24,081 nucleotides of DNA from a virus: the IMG/VR virus record IMGVR_UViG_3300037137_001296, positions 1 through 24,081 of that record; one strand, given 5' to 3'. Numbering within the stretch: position 1 is the stretch's first letter; the number at the start of each line of letters is the position of its first letter. Made by a program: the position numbers and the translations under genes. The notes beneath the pieces were generated by a model that ran no database searches, was not told the DNA's origin, and saw nothing but the letters and a program-made list of their open reading frames with translations. Below are positions 1,178 to 12,922 of the stretch, one piece after another.

Positions 1178-1320
1178 ACGTCACCACTACGCAGTACCGT
1201 CAGGATACCTGTGAGCAGTACGACAGCAAGCAACAACGCATTGCCGTCAATCTCAGGTGCTGCAAGGCCACGTACAGCGTGGTCATGACAGAACCAACCT
1301 AGTGTTTCACACCAACCCAT
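1174..1320 (-). CDS. Small single-pass membrane peptide, 48 aa
   Basis: A 48-codon frame not long enough for most gene callers. Its ATG shares the last base of the upstream stop codon (TAATG at 1320) and is preceded by a good GGGAGAAG ribosome-binding site; its stop overlaps the next ATG (ATGA). Residues 1-25 contain two Cys and two His (MGWCETLGWFCHDH). Residues about 27-43 are hydrophobic (ALLLAVVLLTGILTVL), long enough for one membrane helix, and are followed by a short RSGDV tail. Such peptides in phages can be holin-like, spanin-like or superinfection-related, but nothing here distinguishes these. The exact gene junctions make it very likely to be translated. Confidence 0.7.
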   Translation of the reverse strand: MGWCETLGWFCHDHAVRGLAAPEIDGNALLLAVVLLTGILTVLRSGDV

Positions 1321-1709
1321 TATGCTTCTCCCTTCATGTAACGTCGGAATGATCCATGTGGAATGACACGCCAGCCCTTACCAGCTTGTAAGGGTGCGTA
1401 TATCCACACGTTCTCGTACACTGTGCCATTGGTCATGGTCACAACGCATGTGAGTCGCTTGTACCATGTTGGGTCATCGGCGTACGCGCGTAGATTCTCC
1501 AAGTGATCGAATACTCTCAGTGTGGAGTCACCCATCTCATGTACTTCACCATGTACAAGAGACGTGCCACCCAAGAGCACACGCGGGAAGCCAGCATAGT
1601 ACATAGTGCCATGTACTGTGCCTGTACCGAGGATGGTCACACCATCGCTCGTACTGTACAACGGCATACCTTCCATGAGGTTGCCATATGCAAACACCTT
1701 ATGCCTCAC
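1320..1709 (-). CDS. Gamma-glutamylcyclotransferase-like (AIG2/GGCT fold) protein
   Basis: The 129-residue protein has the layout of the GGCT/AIG2-like family. Near the N-terminus (about residues 5-12) is the Tyr-Gly loop, FAYGNLMEG, that holds the gamma-glutamyl group. A central GxVHG/GEVHE strand region follows. Then comes FDHLEN with Glu71 in the place of the family's catalytic acid, followed by YKR and a VYENVWIY strand. Known members release 5-oxoproline from gamma-glutamyl amino acids or peptides; the substrate here is unknown. The ATG at 1739 is available, but the GTG at 1709 is preferred because GGAGG lies exactly 6 nt upstream and this places the Tyr-Gly motif at the usual distance from the N-terminus. 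It overlaps the upstream gene by 11 nt. Confidence 0.8.
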   Translation of the reverse strand: MRHKVFAYGNLMEGMPLYSTSDGVTILGTGTVHGTMYYAGFPRVLLGGTSLVHGEVHEMGDSTLRVFDHLENLRAYADDPTWYKRLTCVVTMTNGTVYENVWIYAPLQAGKGWRVIPHGSFRRYMKGEA

Positions 1710-3303: not shown

Positions 3304-3466
3304 CGGTGATGCGCTGCGCATTGTATGTAGTGCTCTATGCTGTATGCCAGTGACCCCCCTGGGTGGCGCCCCTGGCCCTATGATATCATAACAGCCGCAA
3401 ACAGAATGCCGTTTTTGGTTTCACGGCACCTGTGCGATTTTGCTGGGGAATTTTTTGGTTTCCTCC

Positions 3467-3492: not shown

Positions 3493-3703
3493 CTTTGGAC
3501 CTTACCGAACTTATGCGTGCGGAGGATAAGGTGGCTAATCTCCGCATAACTCTCGTGCACCGCTGCACGATTCGGGGCTCGCGCTGGGAAGCGCGCTCGC
3601 CCCTCCCGCACCCTCGATACTGTTCTATTCTGACAAACACTGTTCTTCCTCCTCCCTATAAAGATATGCTTTTGGAGGAAGGAAGCTGATCCCACCTACG
3701 GCT

Positions 3704-3719
3704 CGCGCCTGACGGCGCG
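3704..3719. other. GC-rich hairpin before the small terminase promoter
   Basis: CGCGCC and GGCGCG form a 6-bp stem around a TGAC loop, about 85 nt upstream of the TTGACA box. There is no T-run. It could insulate the rightward promoter from readthrough. Confidence 0.35.
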
Positions 3720-3802: not shown

Positions 3803-3831
3803 TTGACAAGGCGAGCGGTGTTCTGTACTGT
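3803..3831 (+). promoter_or_regulatory. Promoter of the packaging operon, predicted leaderless
   Basis: A perfect TTGACA -35 box (3803-3808), a 17-nt spacer, and a TACTGT -10 box (3826-3831, fits TAnnnT). The expected transcription start is at about 3838, at or next to the ATG at 3839. The last 8 nt of the spacer plus the -10 region (GTGTTCTG, then TACTGTAGAAC) align without gaps to the promoter at 8837. This is the main argument that it is a real element rather than chance. Confidence 0.65.
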
Positions 3832-3838
3832 AGAACGA

Positions 3839-4411
3839 ATGGCGATGCAATCACGACTCAAGGCGATCCAGCGCCGCCTCATCAGCGGTCAGCTAGAGCC
3901 CGAGGACAAGGAGGCGATCACCACCGTACGGCAGATCATCGCCTGCAAGCGTGAGGGCGCGACCCTGGTCGAAGTCGCCCGTGAGACGGGGATGACGGAG
4001 CCCCAAGTTCGGCAGTACATCAAGCGCGGGGTCTATCGGCTGTACGCCGACTACCTCGCGCAGCTTGAACAGGGCGACGATGAGAAGCAGGTTGAGAAAC
4101 TCGTCAAGACTGCCAAGCAACGCTTTGCGTCATTCGCACCCGATGCGATAGACTACTATCAGGAGTGCTTCCAGCGAAATCCCATTGACCTCCAGACAAC
4201 GGATGGGATTTTCAAGGACAGCGCGCGAGCAATGTGGGCCACCGAGAAGGTGAGCAAAGGGCTGGGCTTCACCGAGCCTGAGCATGTCGCTCGCCCCGTG
4301 GTCCACATTGACTTGCGCCTGATTCATGCCGAGATGGCGATGGTAGCTACGGACGATGCGACAGCAGCCGAGGCGGCGAGGACCATAGATGTCACGCCCA
4401 CTCAAGCCTAA
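3839..4411 (+). CDS. terS: Terminase small subunit (putative)
   Basis: A 190-residue protein immediately upstream of the large terminase. Residues about 43-66 (LVEVARETGMTEPQVRQYIKRG) form a helix-turn-helix typical of small terminases, which bind the packaging site on concatemeric DNA and deliver it to the large subunit. Residues 75-150 are helical and probably form the oligomerisation domain. The frame is open upstream to a TTG at 3740, but that extension has no ribosome-binding site and contains the promoter, so the ATG at 3839 (or 3845) is chosen; it lies 7 nt after the -10 box, predicting leaderless translation. The C-terminal tail is Ala/Thr-rich. The assignment rests on position, size and HTH rather than on a specific signature. 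Confidence 0.75.
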   Translation: MAMQSRLKAIQRRLISGQLEPEDKEAITTVRQIIACKREGATLVEVARETGMTEPQVRQYIKRGVYRLYADYLAQLEQGDDEKQVEKLVKTAKQRFASFAPDAIDYYQECFQRNPIDLQTTDGIFKDSARAMWATEKVSKGLGFTEPEHVARPVVHIDLRLIHAEMAMVATDDATAAEAARTIDVTPTQA

Positions 4412-4529
4412 GCGTCCTCCTGAAATGCGACCCAGCACTCCTCTTACGAGGATGCGCGTGCGTCGCGCCCGCAGCAAAGCCAAGGTGAAAGCTGGCGCTG
4501 CGGGCACCGTTGTCGAAGTGGAGAGCTAA
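4389..4529 (+). CDS. Basic peptide between the terminase genes, 46 aa
   Basis: A short frame that starts 23 nt inside the end of the small terminase gene and ends in TAATG, sharing a base with the large terminase ATG. GAGGA lies 6 nt upstream of its ATG (4389). The product is rich in Arg, Lys and Pro (MSRPLKPKRPPEMRP, then RMRVRRARSKAKVK) and ends with a short acidic/hydrophobic stretch (TVVEVES). It is probably disordered and nucleic-acid-binding. Its placement between terS and terL suggests a packaging role or simply translational coupling; the family is unknown. Confidence 0.65.
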   Translation: MSRPLKPKRPPEMRPSTPLTRMRVRRARSKAKVKAGAAGTVVEVES

Positions 4530-6430
4530 TGTCCTTTCGCTTCGACCCACCTCGGTCTGATGAGCCGAACTACTACTTGTTCCCTGCTCCACCCCCTTAC
4601 CGTTTCTGGCTGAAAGGCACGAGGCTTATTGAGTTGCAGGGACGCCTCGACAGCGGCCAAGTACTCGAAGGCGCCGACTTCCTCGAATACAAACGGCTGC
4701 GCGGTAAGGAAGATTTCTTCTACTTCGCCAAGCACATCGTCGGCTTCAGTTGGTTGGAATGGGACTTGCATGGGCCGATCGCGTACGCGTGGTCCTGCGC
4801 CAACGGCACCCGCAATGGCAAGCAGCGATACGGGCGCTTCCGCCTAGGCGTGATCCCCCGAGCCCACCTCAAGACTTCGTTGATGACCCAGGCGTTCGCC
4901 ATGTGGCGTCTCGTGCGGGACCCCGAGGAACGCATCCTGATCTACACCAGCACGTTTGACTTTGCTGGCACGATCATGAACTACATTCGTACCACATTCG
5001 AGGGAGGCGGGAATCATGGACAGTTGTTCTTGCAATGCTATGGTGACATTATTCCCCGCCCCAACGACCGTTCAAAGTGGACAGCAAATGACATTACCAT
5101 TGTACGTCAGGGCGCCTTCTCTGATCCCTCCATCAAAGCCCGAGGTATCGGGTCTAGAGTCGTCGGTGGCCACCACACACTCCAACTTGTTGATGACCTC
5201 GTTGTCGAAGAACTCACCCGACAACAGATGGACAAAGCGATCCGAGAGCTAGATGGCCTTGATCCTCTATACCACAGTGTCGCTCTTGGTGAGCGCCGGT
5301 ACGTTGGGACTCCATGGGCTTTCTATGATCCTATCGTCTATATCTGCCGGTACTGGCGGGACGCTTTGGTGGTTAGGATACCCTGGCGCGACGCCAATAA
5401 GCAGCCCGTTTTCAAATACCGGGAGGCAGATCGCGCCTTGGGGCTTCCCAAAGACTCCTCCCTCAAGGAGTACACCGCCTATGCCGAAGGTATCAAGCGC
5501 CGGAACTCGTGGTTCTTCGCCTGTCAGTACGAATGCTACCCCCAATCCGAGGACGGCATCGGATTCCGCAAGGAATGGTTCAAGTATTTCAAGGTGGTGG
5601 CGGGCACGTTCATCGAATTGGACCGCGAGGAGAAGGAAACAGGCCGAAAGGTCCGCGCTGCGGAGTGCAACACCTTCATCTTGGTCGATCCCAACGTCAT
5701 TGACCCCCCTGGTTCCCGCACGGGCAACACGAACGTGGAGATTCGGCGCAAGGGGGACTTCGCAGCCTGGATTGTTCTATGCGTCTCCCCCGATAATAAC
5801 TGGTATATACCAAGGGTTATCCGTTGGCGGTGTAACGTGGACCAATTCCTTGCCCGGACCCACGAATTGGTCGCGTTATGGGCGCCAAAATGGGTCGCTA
5901 TCGAGCAAGTAGCCGCTCAACGCCTGTTTTTCCACCTGTTCACGCGAGACTTTCGCGATGGCAAGCCCAAATTCCAGATCATTCCCTGGGCAGGGGGCCA
6001 TGCCTCCAAGCCCGTGCGCATTAAGGGGCTGATTCCCTTCTACTCCAACGGGTTTGTGCACCACCGCGTGGCCGATCAGCCCGAAATCACCCAAGGCTTC
6101 AGTGATTTGGAGGGCGAATTGCTCGATGGGGAGGGCGCGGAGCATGATGACGCCTCTGACGCACTGTCCGCAGCCGTTCCTCTGGTCTACCCACCTGGCA
6201 AGGACCGCCCTGGACAACTCGATGCCGCCATTGCAGCCATCAAACAGGATGCGCACCTTCGTCGCCTCGATCCCAACTCCCGTGCCGAGGCAATCGCCTG
6301 GGCACGAAAGAAGCAGGGTGGTATTATCACGGGAGATATGCTACTAGCTGGAGCAAGTACCGAGGATGACGAAAGCGAGGACGAACTCACAGGGCTCGTC
6401 GATCGCCAAGCATGGGAGGCGCTACATTGA
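4529..6430 (+). CDS. terL: Terminase large subunit (packaging ATPase and nuclease)
   Basis: A 633-residue protein with the two-domain layout of large terminases. ATPase domain: a deviant Walker A, GVIPRAHLKTSL (residues 108-118), a Walker B, LVDDLV (220-225) with Asp222/Asp223, and a coupling-type motif YVGTPW (258-263). RNase H-like nuclease domain: acidic residues at Asp387 (ILVDPN), Glu459 (VAIEQ) and Asp544 in HDDASDAL. It pumps DNA into the prohead through the portal and cuts unit-length genomes. The length is typical of the family. The ATG shares a base with the upstream stop (TAATG) and has GGAGAG as ribosome-binding site. It is followed by a TGATG junction. The motif set is complete, so it is probably active. 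Confidence 0.95.
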   Translation: MSFRFDPPRSDEPNYYLFPAPPPYRFWLKGTRLIELQGRLDSGQVLEGADFLEYKRLRGKEDFFYFAKHIVGFSWLEWDLHGPIAYAWSCANGTRNGKQRYGRFRLGVIPRAHLKTSLMTQAFAMWRLVRDPEERILIYTSTFDFAGTIMNYIRTTFEGGGNHGQLFLQCYGDIIPRPNDRSKWTANDITIVRQGAFSDPSIKARGIGSRVVGGHHTLQLVDDLVVEELTRQQMDKAIRELDGLDPLYHSVALGERRYVGTPWAFYDPIVYICRYWRDALVVRIPWRDANKQPVFKYREADRALGLPKDSSLKEYTAYAEGIKRRNSWFFACQYECYPQSEDGIGFRKEWFKYFKVVAGTFIELDREEKETGRKVRAAECNTFILVDPNVIDPPGSRTGNTNVEIRRKGDFAAWIVLCVSPDNNWYIPRVIRWRCNVDQFLARTHELVALWAPKWVAIEQVAAQRLFFHLFTRDFRDGKPKFQIIPWAGGHASKPVRIKGLIPFYSNGFVHHRVADQPEITQGFSDLEGELLDGEGAEHDDASDALSAAVPLVYPPGKDRPGQLDAAIAAIKQDAHLRRLDPNSRAEAIAWARKKQGGIITGDMLLAGASTEDDESEDELTGLVDRQAWEALH

Positions 6431-6810
6431 TGTGGAAAGGATACAGTCGTGGCTACGCAGATGGAATCGAAAAAGGACGAGTTCAGATCCTTCAAGACTT
6501 TGAAAGAGTTCTTGCAGTATGTCGAGAAGAGTTGTCCGATGTGCGGCGAGATCGAGACTTGCAGATGCAGCGAGCCGACGCTGCCGCTGATCTTCTCCTA
6601 CACCACCTCGGTGCCAAAGCGATTTCACTCGTAGGCCAGCAGGAGGAAGCAGCCTCCCGTGCCCGTCAACTCGCTGCCGTACGGACATTGAGCAATCTCC
6701 CCGATCCAACTGAGGATCTACCCTACAACGATCCGCGAGGCACCTACCGCTCCGCGCGTGACGCTTCTCTCTTTGCCGATGGCGAAGATGTGAATAGCGC
6801 GGAGGGTTAG
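6430..6810 (+). CDS. Hypothetical protein between terminase and portal, 126 aa
   Basis: The ATG at 6430 shares the last base of the large terminase stop (TGATG) and is preceded by GGAGG with a 10-nt gap. An ATG 18 nt upstream contains that ribosome-binding site and is less likely. The N-terminus (GYSRGYADGIEKGR) and the following 60 residues are helical and charged, with coiled-coil character (EELSDVRRDRDLQMQRADAA). The C-terminus is polar and probably disordered. It ends in TAGTG, overlapping the portal start. The family is not recognised; small helical proteins at this position can be packaging or portal accessory factors. Codon third positions in its first half are unusually AT-rich, explained by the nested frame described separately. 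Confidence 0.7.
   Translation: MWKGYSRGYADGIEKGRVQILQDFERVLAVCREELSDVRRDRDLQMQRADAAADLLLHHLGAKAISLVGQQEEAASRARQLAAVRTLSNLPDPTEDLPYNDPRGTYRSARDASLFADGEDVNSAEG
6449..6634 (+). CDS. Nested overlapping ORF, Cys-motif protein, 61 aa (candidate)
   Basis: A 61-codon frame lying wholly inside the preceding gene in another reading frame. It starts at GTG (6449) with AAAGGA 8 nt upstream. The product is well formed: a charged helical N-terminus (KKDEFRSFKTLKEFLQYVEK) and then a CPMCGEIETCRC cluster that could bind a metal ion. A hand count gives G or C in the third position of about 47 of 61 codons. The overlapped part of the host frame has only about 29 of 68, while the rest of that gene has about 33 of 58. 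This suggests the nested frame is under coding constraint. The alternative is that only the longer frame is translated and the pattern is accidental. Confidence 0.5.
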   Translation: MATQMESKKDEFRSFKTLKEFLQYVEKSCPMCGEIETCRCSEPTLPLIFSYTTSVPKRFHS

Positions 6811-8840
6811 TGGATAAGGACAAGATCAAAGTCTTTCACGACAAGTCGATCTCGCGCATGCAGAAGGGGCGCGAGGCTGTCTTGCGTGCAGCCTACGAGA
6901 ACATCTTGTTCTGGCTGGACATTCAGTGGATTCGCTGGTCGGGTGCCGAGCAGACGTTCCTGCGCGCGAACACGGCGCGTGGTGTACCGCGCCCAGTCGA
7001 GAATGTCTACCGCCCCAAGCTGATGAAGCCCATCTCGCGGCTCTCCTCGATTGAGCCGTCACTTTCTTTCGCGCCAGGTAGTGAGCGAAAGGATGATCGG
7101 ATCACGGCAGATTCAGGACGTATGGTCCTGCACTACATCGAGAATGTCGTCAAGATCGAGAAGCTTCGTAACCGCCTCGCGTATCAAACCACGCTCTTTG
7201 GCAATGCATGGCTCATCAATGGCTACGATCCTGACGCGGGTCCACTCATCGACGTGGGCAAAGGCAAGATGGCGCCCCAAGGTGAGATTACCTCTGAGGT
7301 CGCCAACATCTTCGAGTTGATGTGTGACTACACCATTCCTGACATGGACCGCCAGCCTGTCATTGTGTGGCGCAAGATGCGTTCCCTCGAATGGGTCCGC
7401 GAGCACTACCCCGAGGCCAAGGTTCGGGAGGAAGATACGGCTGCCCAGTCGAGTGACATGGGCATGACCATGCTCCAAAACATTGTGCGTCTCCAACCCA
7501 CGCTCGTGTCGATCGTAGGATCGAGCGCGCAGTTCTCTCGCTCCGTCATTGTCGATGACGTGTACGCGCTTCCCTGTCGTGACTTTCCCGAGGGCTTGCT
7601 CGCGCGTGTGGTCGGTGACGATGCCGAGGTTGTCGAGAACAAACCACTCCCCTTCCACTACGGTACACTCGACAAGCGCGGTAAGGTGTTTCTCCCGGCT
7701 GTCCACTTTGGTTACGATGAAGTCCCAGGAGCCCTCCTATGTACTACCCCGGCCAACTCACTGAAAGAGCCGCAACGTCAGCGGAACAAGCTCATTTCAC
7801 ACATTCTCCTCTACTTCGCGCGTTCTGCGAATGGTGTCTGGGCTGTCCCCGAGAATGCCGATGTATCAACTATCGGAGGGACGGAAGGTGTCGTCATCCG
7901 GTATACTGCAAACTCTACCGGTGGTGGCGCACCCCAACGTCTCAGCGGCGACACGCTCCCAAGTACGTTTGCGGAACGGCTCAACCAGATCGACAAGACG
8001 ATGGACGACATCATCACGGTGGGGGATCTGGCCGACAAATTCCCCCGAGCGGACTCGGCCGTATTCATTAACACGGTCATCGAGCAACAGCAGCAACAAC
8101 TTGGTCCGGTGTTCAAGCGGTGGGGTCAGTCGTGGGTAGACTTCGCGACGCAGGCATTCCACATCTTCCGCAACTTCGCGCCCGAGGAAGTATTCTACAA
8201 GATCAAGGGTGAGGAGGCCCGATGGTCGTTCAAGAAGATTGCCACTGCCGAATTGTGCGGTGGAATCGACATCCGGGTCGAGTCGAACTCGCTCCAGCCC
8301 AAGACCCTACTCCAACACAAAGCCGCCTACGAGCAAATGGCAAACCTCCTGCCCATGCTCTTGCAGGACCCTGATGTCCAGTTGAAGTACGCCCGCGTCA
8401 TTGGGGCGGTCGAACTCATGGAGGGGTTGGAGGCTGACGACAACCAGATTGCTCGTGAGCACGATGCTCTCATCGAATGGGCCAAGCAGTTCTTCAACAT
8501 GGAGACGGGCGAGCTACTCCCGAATGTGGACCCCGAGGACCCGGCGCTCACCATGCCGATCCATGTCGATCAGGACTTTGACAACCACGCTCTCCACCTC
8601 CAGCGCCACCGTGAATGGTGCTTGAGCGAGGAGTTCCAGGGCCTGCCCCTCAGTGTGCAAGATGCGTTCCGTGCCATGCACTATAGAGTGCATGCTCAGT
8701 TGTTTGCTATGCAGCAAGCCGCAGCCGCAGCGCCGCAAGGCAGCGGAGGCGAAGGCGACGCCCAGGGCAAAGACAAAGGCGAGGGTGGGGGCGGCGCGGA
8801 CAAAATGGAGTCAGGTAAGCCTGGGAAACCAGGCTCTTGA
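6810..8840 (+). CDS. Portal protein
   Basis: A 676-residue protein directly after the terminase genes, with size, order and composition expected of a podovirus-type portal. It forms the dodecameric ring at one vertex through which the terminase pumps DNA and to which the neck attaches. The N-terminus is helical and aromatic (ILFWLDIQWIRWSG), followed by a conserved-looking NVYRPKLMKPISRLSS stretch. The centre is mixed alpha/beta. A helical region with a Gln run lies near residue 430 (VIEQQQQQLGPVFKRWG), as in the crown/stem region of portals. The last 50 residues are Gly/Lys/Ala-rich and disordered. The start is GTG at 6810 with GGAGGG 4-5 nt upstream, overlapping the previous stop. The stop at 8840 lies within the next promoter. 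Confidence 0.85.
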   Translation: MDKDKIKVFHDKSISRMQKGREAVLRAAYENILFWLDIQWIRWSGAEQTFLRANTARGVPRPVENVYRPKLMKPISRLSSIEPSLSFAPGSERKDDRITADSGRMVLHYIENVVKIEKLRNRLAYQTTLFGNAWLINGYDPDAGPLIDVGKGKMAPQGEITSEVANIFELMCDYTIPDMDRQPVIVWRKMRSLEWVREHYPEAKVREEDTAAQSSDMGMTMLQNIVRLQPTLVSIVGSSAQFSRSVIVDDVYALPCRDFPEGLLARVVGDDAEVVENKPLPFHYGTLDKRGKVFLPAVHFGYDEVPGALLCTTPANSLKEPQRQRNKLISHILLYFARSANGVWAVPENADVSTIGGTEGVVIRYTANSTGGGAPQRLSGDTLPSTFAERLNQIDKTMDDIITVGDLADKFPRADSAVFINTVIEQQQQQLGPVFKRWGQSWVDFATQAFHIFRNFAPEEVFYKIKGEEARWSFKKIATAELCGGIDIRVESNSLQPKTLLQHKAAYEQMANLLPMLLQDPDVQLKYARVIGAVELMEGLEADDNQIAREHDALIEWAKQFFNMETGELLPNVDPEDPALTMPIHVDQDFDNHALHLQRHREWCLSEEFQGLPLSVQDAFRAMHYRVHAQLFAMQQAAAAAPQGSGGEGDAQGKDKGEGGGGADKMESGKPGKPGS

Positions 8841-8865
8841 CAGTCCTCACAGTGTTTGGTAGGGT
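8837..8865 (+). promoter_or_regulatory. Promoter inside the head module, predicted leaderless
   Basis: TTGACA (8837-8842), a 17-nt spacer and TAGGGT (8860-8865), with the ATG at 8874 lying 8 nt further on. The TTGA of the -35 box overlaps the portal stop codon. The end of the spacer and the -10 region (GTGTTTGG, then TAGGGTAAAAC) match the promoter at 3803 in register: the same 9-nt gap after TTGACA, then GTGTTYKG, TANNGTANAAC. It would give extra transcription of the scaffold and capsid genes. Confidence 0.65.
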
Positions 8866-8873
8866 AAAACACA

Positions 8874-9260
8874 ATGGCTGGGATTGAGTATGGTCAATCA
8901 GAAGCTGAGAAGCAGGGTCAGACCGGCACGCCACAACCTGGCGCAATGCTTTCTGGACCCAATGGACCTCTCGCCTTCATGGGATCTACTCCTGGTATCG
9001 GCCCAAACTCACCACAGGCTCTTGCCGGGGCAGCGGGCGCCGTTGCACCAGGATTCGTCCCGCCCACGATACAAGGCGCTGGAGGCCCCCAGTTTGGCTC
9101 TAGCGCCGTTAGAAAAGAACAAGCGAGTGTACGCGCACCCGGCTTGACCTTCGCAGCCCTGGCCCAGCCAGGGGCGCCTAGAAGCAACAAACCACTCGCG
9201 CCAAAAGAGCCGAGTGTCAATCTTACAAAACCAGAATACCCGCTAGGAGGCGGTGCATGA
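8874..9260 (+). CDS. Gly/Pro/Ala-rich hypothetical protein, 128 aa
   Basis: Low-complexity protein dominated by Gly, Pro, Ala, Gln and Ser (GNGPLAF-like and GAAGAVAPGF-like stretches), without a clear folded core; probably disordered. The ATG is 8 nt after a -10 box and has only a weak AGGGT upstream, so a leaderless start is likely. Its stop overlaps the next ATG (ATGA). Position after the portal suggests a minor head or assembly protein. The disordered Gly-rich tail of the portal just upstream has similar composition. The family is not recognised. Confidence 0.6.
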   Translation: MAGIEYGQSEAEKQGQTGTPQPGAMLSGPNGPLAFMGSTPGIGPNSPQALAGAAGAVAPGFVPPTIQGAGGPQFGSSAVRKEQASVRAPGLTFAALAQPGAPRSNKPLAPKEPSVNLTKPEYPLGGGA

Positions 9261-11629: not shown

Positions 11630-12922
11630 GTGGCTCAGTCACTTACCAATTTTGCGAGCATGCTCAAGTTGCACTATCGTCAGATGGTGCTCAACTTGAT
11701 GAACAATGAAATCGCAATCTACAACCGTTGCAAGCGCGCTCCCAGTGAAGTCTGGGAGGGACGTGATGTCATCAAGTGGCCTCTCATCACCGGTCGTTCC
11801 CAGGCTTTCGGCTCTGGGCGTCCTGGTGGGGCGCTGCCTGATCCGCAGCACACCCCGACTGCCGACATGGAAGTGCCTCTCCGCTTCATCTGGGGTTCCA
11901 TCGGCATCGACGCTCCGACCATGAAGGTGGCGAAGTCGGATAAGGGCTCGTTCGCGCGTGCTCTCGACTTCGAGATGGATCGCTTCAAGGAGGCGTTCTT
12001 CGACTACCTCAACGAGATCACCTGGGCCGATGGCCGTGGTATTCTCGCACTGGTTAGCGCGGTGGGCGCGAGCACCACGACTCTTTCTGTCGATTCCCCG
12101 ATGGGTATTGCCGGAACGATCAACGGTGCGCGCTTCCTCCAGCCGTCTATGCGTGTTGCTATCCTCTCGACTGATGGTTCGTCCATCGCATCGGTTCGTC
12201 GAGTGGAGAGCATCGCGGCTGACGGCAACAGTGTCACCCTCAACAGCGCCGTCACCGCTGGTCAGGCTCCCGATAACGGGCTGATCTGCCGTGCGCCGTC
12301 GCTGCTCACCACCGATGTCAGCGACGTGTCGTACCTGTCCGATCCGATGGGCATGCTCGGCATGATCGACGATGGCACCTACGTCAACGACTACTTCGGA
12401 TTCAACCGCACCACGCAGCCCTTGGCTCGTGCGTCGGTGTTCCCGAACGTTGGCGCGCTCAACCTGGATATCATCCAGCAGGTGCGGGATGTGATCGACC
12501 AGGTGGGCCGTGGCAAGATCAGTGAGTCGTGGATGCATCACTCGACCCGCCGATCCTACGCCGCATTGACCTTCGCTAACCGCCAGTTCATTTCCTCGGG
12601 CGGCGCGATGGACAATGATGCGGGCTACAAGAACAACCTCCAGGGGGGCAAGAACATCGAGTGTGGTGGGGTGCCCTGTTTCGTGGACAAGGACGCGCCG
12701 TACCGTCAGTGGTACGACATGGATTGGAAGGAAGCGGTCAAGTTCCCGAACACTGAGTTCGAGTGGGCCTCTGAGTCTGGAGCCATCTTGAAGCAAGTGC
12801 CGGGAGTGGACGCTTTCACCGCGTACGCCCGGATGTTCTACAACATGTGCCACGGGAAGCCGCTGGCATGTGGGCGTCTCGACGATATCAACACCAACGT
12901 CGTCGTCGCGCACGTCCGGTAG
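11630..12922 (+). CDS. Major capsid protein
   Basis: A 430-residue protein, start GTG at 11630 with AAGGAG upstream, matching HK97-fold capsid proteins in size and position. An N-terminal helical arm is followed by a GRxxIKWPLITGRSQAFG stretch and a long spine-helix region (FEMDRFKEAFFDYLNEITWADG, residues about 113-135). Residues about 147-222 form a beta insertion (TTTLSVDSPMGIAG to VTLNSAVTAG) of the kind seen in many capsid proteins. The C-terminal part has the usual substrate-like run (VPCFVDKDAPY, WYDMD). It assembles the icosahedral shell. A terminator-like hairpin follows. A 424-codon frame on the opposite strand is a codon-bias shadow. Confidence 0.88.
   Translation: MAQSLTNFASMLKLHYRQMVLNLMNNEIAIYNRCKRAPSEVWEGRDVIKWPLITGRSQAFGSGRPGGALPDPQHTPTADMEVPLRFIWGSIGIDAPTMKVAKSDKGSFARALDFEMDRFKEAFFDYLNEITWADGRGILALVSAVGASTTTLSVDSPMGIAGTINGARFLQPSMRVAILSTDGSSIASVRRVESIAADGNSVTLNSAVTAGQAPDNGLICRAPSLLTTDVSDVSYLSDPMGMLGMIDDGTYVNDYFGFNRTTQPLARASVFPNVGALNLDIIQQVRDVIDQVGRGKISESWMHHSTRRSYAALTFANRQFISSGGAMDNDAGYKNNLQGGKNIECGGVPCFVDKDAPYRQWYDMDWKEAVKFPNTEFEWASESGAILKQVPGVDAFTAYARMFYNMCHGKPLACGRLDDINTNVVVAHVR

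Follow-up and report, generated by a model that had tools for sequence, protein, structure and literature searches.

Candidate promoters at the terminase and portal genes

The window, by which we mean the whole stretch of DNA analysed, is a 24-kb viral contig (24,081 nucleotides) in which packaging and structural genes are interspersed with two promoter-like sites, here called P1 and P2:

3803-3831, plus strand: candidate promoter P1 (TTGACA at 3803-3808, 17-bp spacer, TACTGT at 3826-3831)
3839-4411, plus strand: gene for a helix-turn-helix protein, the probable small terminase subunit, first after P1 (Pfam Sigma70_r4, 2.4e-5)
4529-6430, plus strand: terminase large subunit gene, terL (PHROG 38, E = 1.1e-39)
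6810-8840, plus strand: portal protein gene (PHROG 156, E = 3.6e-12)
8837-8865, plus strand: candidate promoter P2 (TTGACA at 8837-8842, 17-bp spacer, TAGGGT at 8860-8865)
8874-9260, plus strand: gene for a Pro/Gly-rich 128-aa protein of unassigned function, first after P2, with a predicted leaderless start at ATG 8874
11630-12922: major capsid gene

An earlier note on this DNA had pointed to a TTGACA, spacer and -10 pattern shared by the sites at 3803 and 8837, and its coordinates and letters are exact to the base. The P1 spacer (N17) ends in GTGTTCTG and the -10 box is followed by AGAACGA and ATG 3839, while the P2 spacer (N17) ends in GTGTTTGG and its -10 box is followed by AAAACACA and ATG 8874. 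The gaps between -10 box and ATG, given earlier as 7-8 nt, measure 7 nt at P1 and 8 nt at P2, within the 6-9 nt range used here for leaderless genes, and the common core, TTGACA-N17-TANNGT, has the layout of sigma-70/SigA-type promoters (a TTGACA-like -35 box and a TANNNT -10 box 16-18 bp apart). The sites had also been described as two unrelated intergenic ones; there are indeed two, but P2 is partly genic, with the stop codon of the portal gene (TGA, 8838-8840) inside its -35 box.

Start codons and Shine-Dalgarno sequences

The role of the 3839 gene as small terminase is inferred from its location before terL, and homologues are present in the related contigs G3, G4, G5 and L023 (defined below). 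Its reading frame is open 5´ to position 3713 and contains several TTG, GTG and ATG codons, so that automatic annotation may pick a start overlapping P1; if an in-frame upstream TTG or GTG is taken as the start, the annotated gene would be over-long. ATG 3839 is supported because homology begins there and because, in the G4 homologue, the matching ATG is closely preceded by an in-frame stop codon. No Shine-Dalgarno (SD) sequence precedes this codon: its anti-SD energy is 0.2, against a window median of -6.4, and no other gene among the 28 scored in the window pairs as weakly.

We regard the 8874 gene as coding because it is 71% identical to its counterpart in G2, with an identical start region; a similar ORF of 114 aa lies at the matching position in G4. 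The claim that this gene has at most a weak AGGGT upstream holds in part. The SD-like GGTAGGG has a duplex energy of -6.0, mid-range among the window genes and near their median, but it overlaps the P2 -10 box and would therefore be absent from a transcript begun at P2. Neither predicted transcript would thus carry an SD sequence.

Occurrence of the promoter core relative to chance

On both strands of the window, P1 and P2 are the only exact matches to TTGACA-N17-TANNNT (2 versus a mean of 0.05 in shuffled sequences), and both are followed by an ATG after 6-8 nt (2 versus 0.00). Extending the search to the window plus ten related contigs (264 kb, both strands) gave seven exact sites versus a shuffle mean of 1.1. 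All seven lie just 5´ of a gene, with start distances of 7, 8, 8, 7, 12, 16 and ~46 nt, where the G4 site at 12806 was counted with ATG 12842 as the start rather than the TTG picked by a simple gene caller. An ATG follows the -10 box at 6-8 nt at four of these sites, versus a shuffle mean of 0.1. A simple promoter scan recovered neither P1 nor P2, since its rule demands a 4/6 match to TATAAT. The 34-nt pattern proposed in the earlier note has two exact matches, with no third at up to three mismatches; since those two sites were what it was derived from, its absence from shuffled sequences says little.

Conservation in related contigs

Relatives were found through their terminase, portal and capsid proteins; W denotes the window and G2, G3, G4 and G5 the records of L004, L005, L006 and L007. 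Equivalents of P2 were detected in G2 (L004, 1698; TTGACA-17-TAGTGT-8-ATG), G4 (12806; TTGACA-17-TACAGT-7-ATG) and G5 (19175; TTGACA-17-TAGCGT-12-ATG, with AGGGAG between the -10 box and the ATG), and in all four of W, G2, G4 and G5 the portal stop TGA falls inside TTGACA. The P2 spacers of W, G4 and G5 share little, while the core stays. P1 has an equivalent in G5, before the homologous gene (TTGACA-17-CATGGT-7-GTG), and in G4, where it is followed by a tRNA and a small gene (TTGACG-17-TAGAGT). Overall, the core was kept more than the spacer at P2 in G2, G4 and G5 and at P1 in G5 and, with one -35 change, in G4.

At the P1 position, L023 keeps the spacing and has TTGACT, but CAGAAC stands where the -10 box is expected. 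The more distant L026 has TTGACA-17-TATGGT further 3´ of the portal gene, 16 nt before an ATG and with AAGGAG, and in Manatee Spring phage (MW202554) a core site lies ~46 nt from an annotated gene ahead of the terminase. We found no clear P2 equivalent in the region after the portal gene in G3 or L019. Both have diverged in the region before the small-terminase-like gene.

These comparisons indicate that the promoter core and its position are conserved and that leader length drifts, given that the distances to the post-portal start are 8, 8, 7 and 12 nt in W, G2, G4 and G5. Leaderlessness itself is apparently less conserved: with 12 nt and AGGGAG in G5, and G3 and L019 lacking a clear equivalent, it is not family-wide. 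The earlier proposal of real promoters that launch leaderless mRNAs is thus borne out in its promoter part by the fact that relatives keep the hexamers, their 17-bp separation and their location, and at 3839 by the lack of an SD sequence, but the leaderless part is not fixed among relatives (12 nt in G5, 16 nt with AAGGAG in L026).

Additional letters shared by P1 and P2

The same note had defined the promoter class by a shared motif of 29-34 nt and suggested searching related phages for it. Relatives keep TTGACA-N17-TANNGT, but beyond the window the long pattern occurs in a single very close relative: among 2.9 million viral contigs scanned, GTGTTYKG and ANAAC were found together only in the window and L004, and this combination is absent at P2 of G4 and G5. 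We therefore rejected the idea of a wide promoter class marked by the 34-nt motif, as more distant relatives keep the core only. The extra letters look more like a separate 19-bp dyad-like element, TGTTY-N9-RAACR, of which the window holds three copies (no strand assigned):

3621-3639: third copy, TGTTCTATTCTGACAAACA, 182 bp 5´ of P1, kept in G4 (7101) and L023 (301)
3819-3837: TGTTCTGTACTGTAGAACG, overlapping the P1 -10 box
8853-8871: TGTTTGGTAGGGTAAAACA, overlapping the P2 -10 box, with 6-bp arms at 8852-8872

Shuffled sequences contain 0.26 copies on average and none of 200 shuffles reached three, a suggestive excess for a motif that was defined after two of its three copies had been seen. 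All three copies lie outside the stronger gene calls, and the arms are better than in most shuffles at the P2 copy only. The distal copy belongs to a block at 3621-3649, TGTTCTATTCTGACAAACACTGTTCTTCC, that is matched at 26/29 positions in L023 and, over its first 19 nt, at 18/19 in G4, and that sits 179-190 bp 5´ of P1 across the window, G4 and L023. The dyad is absent from the G4 and G5 promoters. The dyads may be operators, may mark a packaging site or may have arisen by chance.

Several other readings of these letters were discarded. GTTY-N9-RAAC as a family-wide operator fails, as G3, G4 and G5 contain no more copies than expected by chance; the distal element (3621) lacks the properly spaced -10 box that a leftward promoter would need; and two additional viral matches to the distal element, TGTTCTAYTCTGWCAAAC, were taken as chance because their phages show no similarity to the window proteins. 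The RecA-NDp/PafBC-type motif is TTGTCRGTG-N8-TANNNT, and the sequence between the boxes of P1 and P2 does not fit it.

Host and comparison with known systems

The relatives of the capsid and portal proteins with known hosts are phages of Arthrobacter, Microbacterium and Cellulosimicrobium, all actinobacterial, at only 21-25% identity, and the host is probably actinobacterial by this comparison. No relative turned up when bacterial genomes were scanned twice with the capsid and terminase as queries. Arthrobacter phage Jasmine (NC_041875), whose capsid protein is a distant homologue, has TTGACA-N17-TACGGT-6-ATG at the annotated start of gp2, unchanged in three sister phages, and so shows the same promoter layout at the first gene of its rightward structural operon. 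Exact TTGACA-N17-TANNNT sites occur in Jasmine (L040) at 1362 (plus strand), 38642 (minus) and 45138 (minus); only the site at 1362 has a start codon at 6-8 nt. Unlike the window, where the spacers contain GTGTT, the three Jasmine spacers share CTCTATGC before the -10 box.

A TANNNT box placed about 12 bp 5´ of the start codon is a recognised signature of leaderless genes, which are commonest, at >20%, in Actinobacteria and Deinococcus-Thermus (PMC3160421). In M. tuberculosis they make up 22-26% of the genes, by the set counted (PMC3898074). The window resembles the leaderless genes of these groups (PMC3160421, PMC3898074; mycobacteria, PMC4633059) in having TANNNT ~12 bp before the start codon (ATG or GTG) and an expected transcript without an SD sequence, but has a full TTGACA -35 box at 17 bp, whereas the leaderless genes of M. 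tuberculosis showed no -35 consensus. SigA promoters giving leaderless mRNAs have already been predicted for cluster O mycobacteriophages (PMC4351075); there, two leaderless promoters diverge near the left end, while those of the window lie before the probable small terminase gene and after the portal gene. Leaderless initiation has also been found in phage lambda (PMC3160421), with cI named in PMC9031893. A phage mRNA would start at its AUG in both cases, but the lambda gene is regulatory, in Escherichia coli, and those of the window belong to a packaging/structural operon.

Interpretation of P1 and P2

We consider it likely that P1 and P2 are host housekeeping-sigma promoters producing leaderless mRNAs, or mRNAs with leaders of 1-3 nt, in a probable actinobacterial host. 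The host housekeeping (sigma-70/SigA-type) RNA polymerase would read both sites, with P1 serving the operon on the terminase side. P2, which overlaps the portal stop codon, would give the post-portal and capsid-side genes a second point of transcript entry. Since the -10 boxes end 7 and 8 nt from the start codons, transcripts should begin at the A of the ATG or 1-3 nt earlier; assuming that 6 nt separate the -10 box from +1, as is usual, and that transcription starts on a purine preceded by a pyrimidine, the predicted 5´ ends are 3837-3839 and 8871-8874 (leaders of 0-3 nt). The ribosome would then start on the 5´-terminal AUG without SD pairing. The 8874 gene may also be translated from mRNA reading through from P1, which would carry GGTAGGG and the nearby portal stop.

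That last route is central to an alternative that we judge unlikely, in which the promoters are real but translation proceeds from leadered mRNAs of other upstream promoters, the short distance between -10 box and ATG being incidental, and the 8874 gene is served by P1 read-through and re-initiation after the portal gene. The position of ATG 8874, 33 nt past the portal stop and with the SD-like GGTAGGG, fits this account, as does a short leader or SD sequence at a similar place in G5 and L026. The account fares worse at 3839, which has no SD sequence and no confidently called gene just 5´ from which to re-initiate, and it leaves the recurrence of an ATG at 6-8 nt in W (twice), G2, G4 and Jasmine to coincidence. 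That neither P1 nor P2 is a promoter and the resemblance arose by chance seems very improbable: the core has nine fixed positions only, and it is through its -10 rule that the simple promoter scan misses it, but both the shuffle tests and the conservation contradict this explanation.

A phage-specific regulated class, in which a phage or host regulator would bind the dyad at each -10 box as its operator, is compatible with the housekeeping-promoter reading rather than exclusive of it, and we hold it only tentatively, as improbable on balance though less so than translation from leadered mRNAs. An operator over both -10 boxes, with the third copy, would mean that P1 and P2 are switched together. 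The excess of copies over the shuffled sequences and the distal copy, which G4 and L023 retain about as far from P1, speak for this; against it, the motif is post hoc, has good arms only at P2 and is missing from the G4 and G5 promoters, and a search near the left end of the window yielded no regulator gene.

We therefore read P1 and P2 as real promoters whose mRNAs probably have no leader or almost none, and as a new, fairly ordinary example of a known arrangement that adds no new mechanism. For a poorly known family of uncultured phages they offer a sequence rule by which operon starts may be located, and the comparison with relatives adds to the evidence that leaderless initiation may serve packaging-operon genes in phages whose hosts are probably actinobacterial.

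Other features of the window and its relatives

Directly 3´ of the P1-equivalent promoter in G4 lies a tRNA-Met(CAT) gene (L013:7320-7394) that encodes its CCA end and has the C1-A72 mismatch seen in initiator tRNAs; positions 29-41 are A-U and 11-24 C-G, so initiator identity is uncertain. Leaderless translation is reported to be stronger when more initiator tRNA is available (PMC9031893). A single regulon, in which a regulator binds the dyads and the distal copy and the G4 promoter drives an initiator-like tRNA-Met that could favour leaderless translation, is a speculative extension that we think quite unlikely.

We also noted a non-coding block at 3344-3358, ATGCCAGTGACCCCC, 5´ of the small-terminase-like gene, that is exact in G5 and partial in G3 and L019 and is a possible packaging or regulatory site. 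The window encodes a Gamma-glutamyl cyclotransferase-like protein (1320-1709, minus strand; PF06094), and in G4 an amidoligase gene adjoins a glutamine amidotransferase gene (L013:1602-3833, minus strand); these genes possibly belong to a shared gamma-glutamyl modification pathway.
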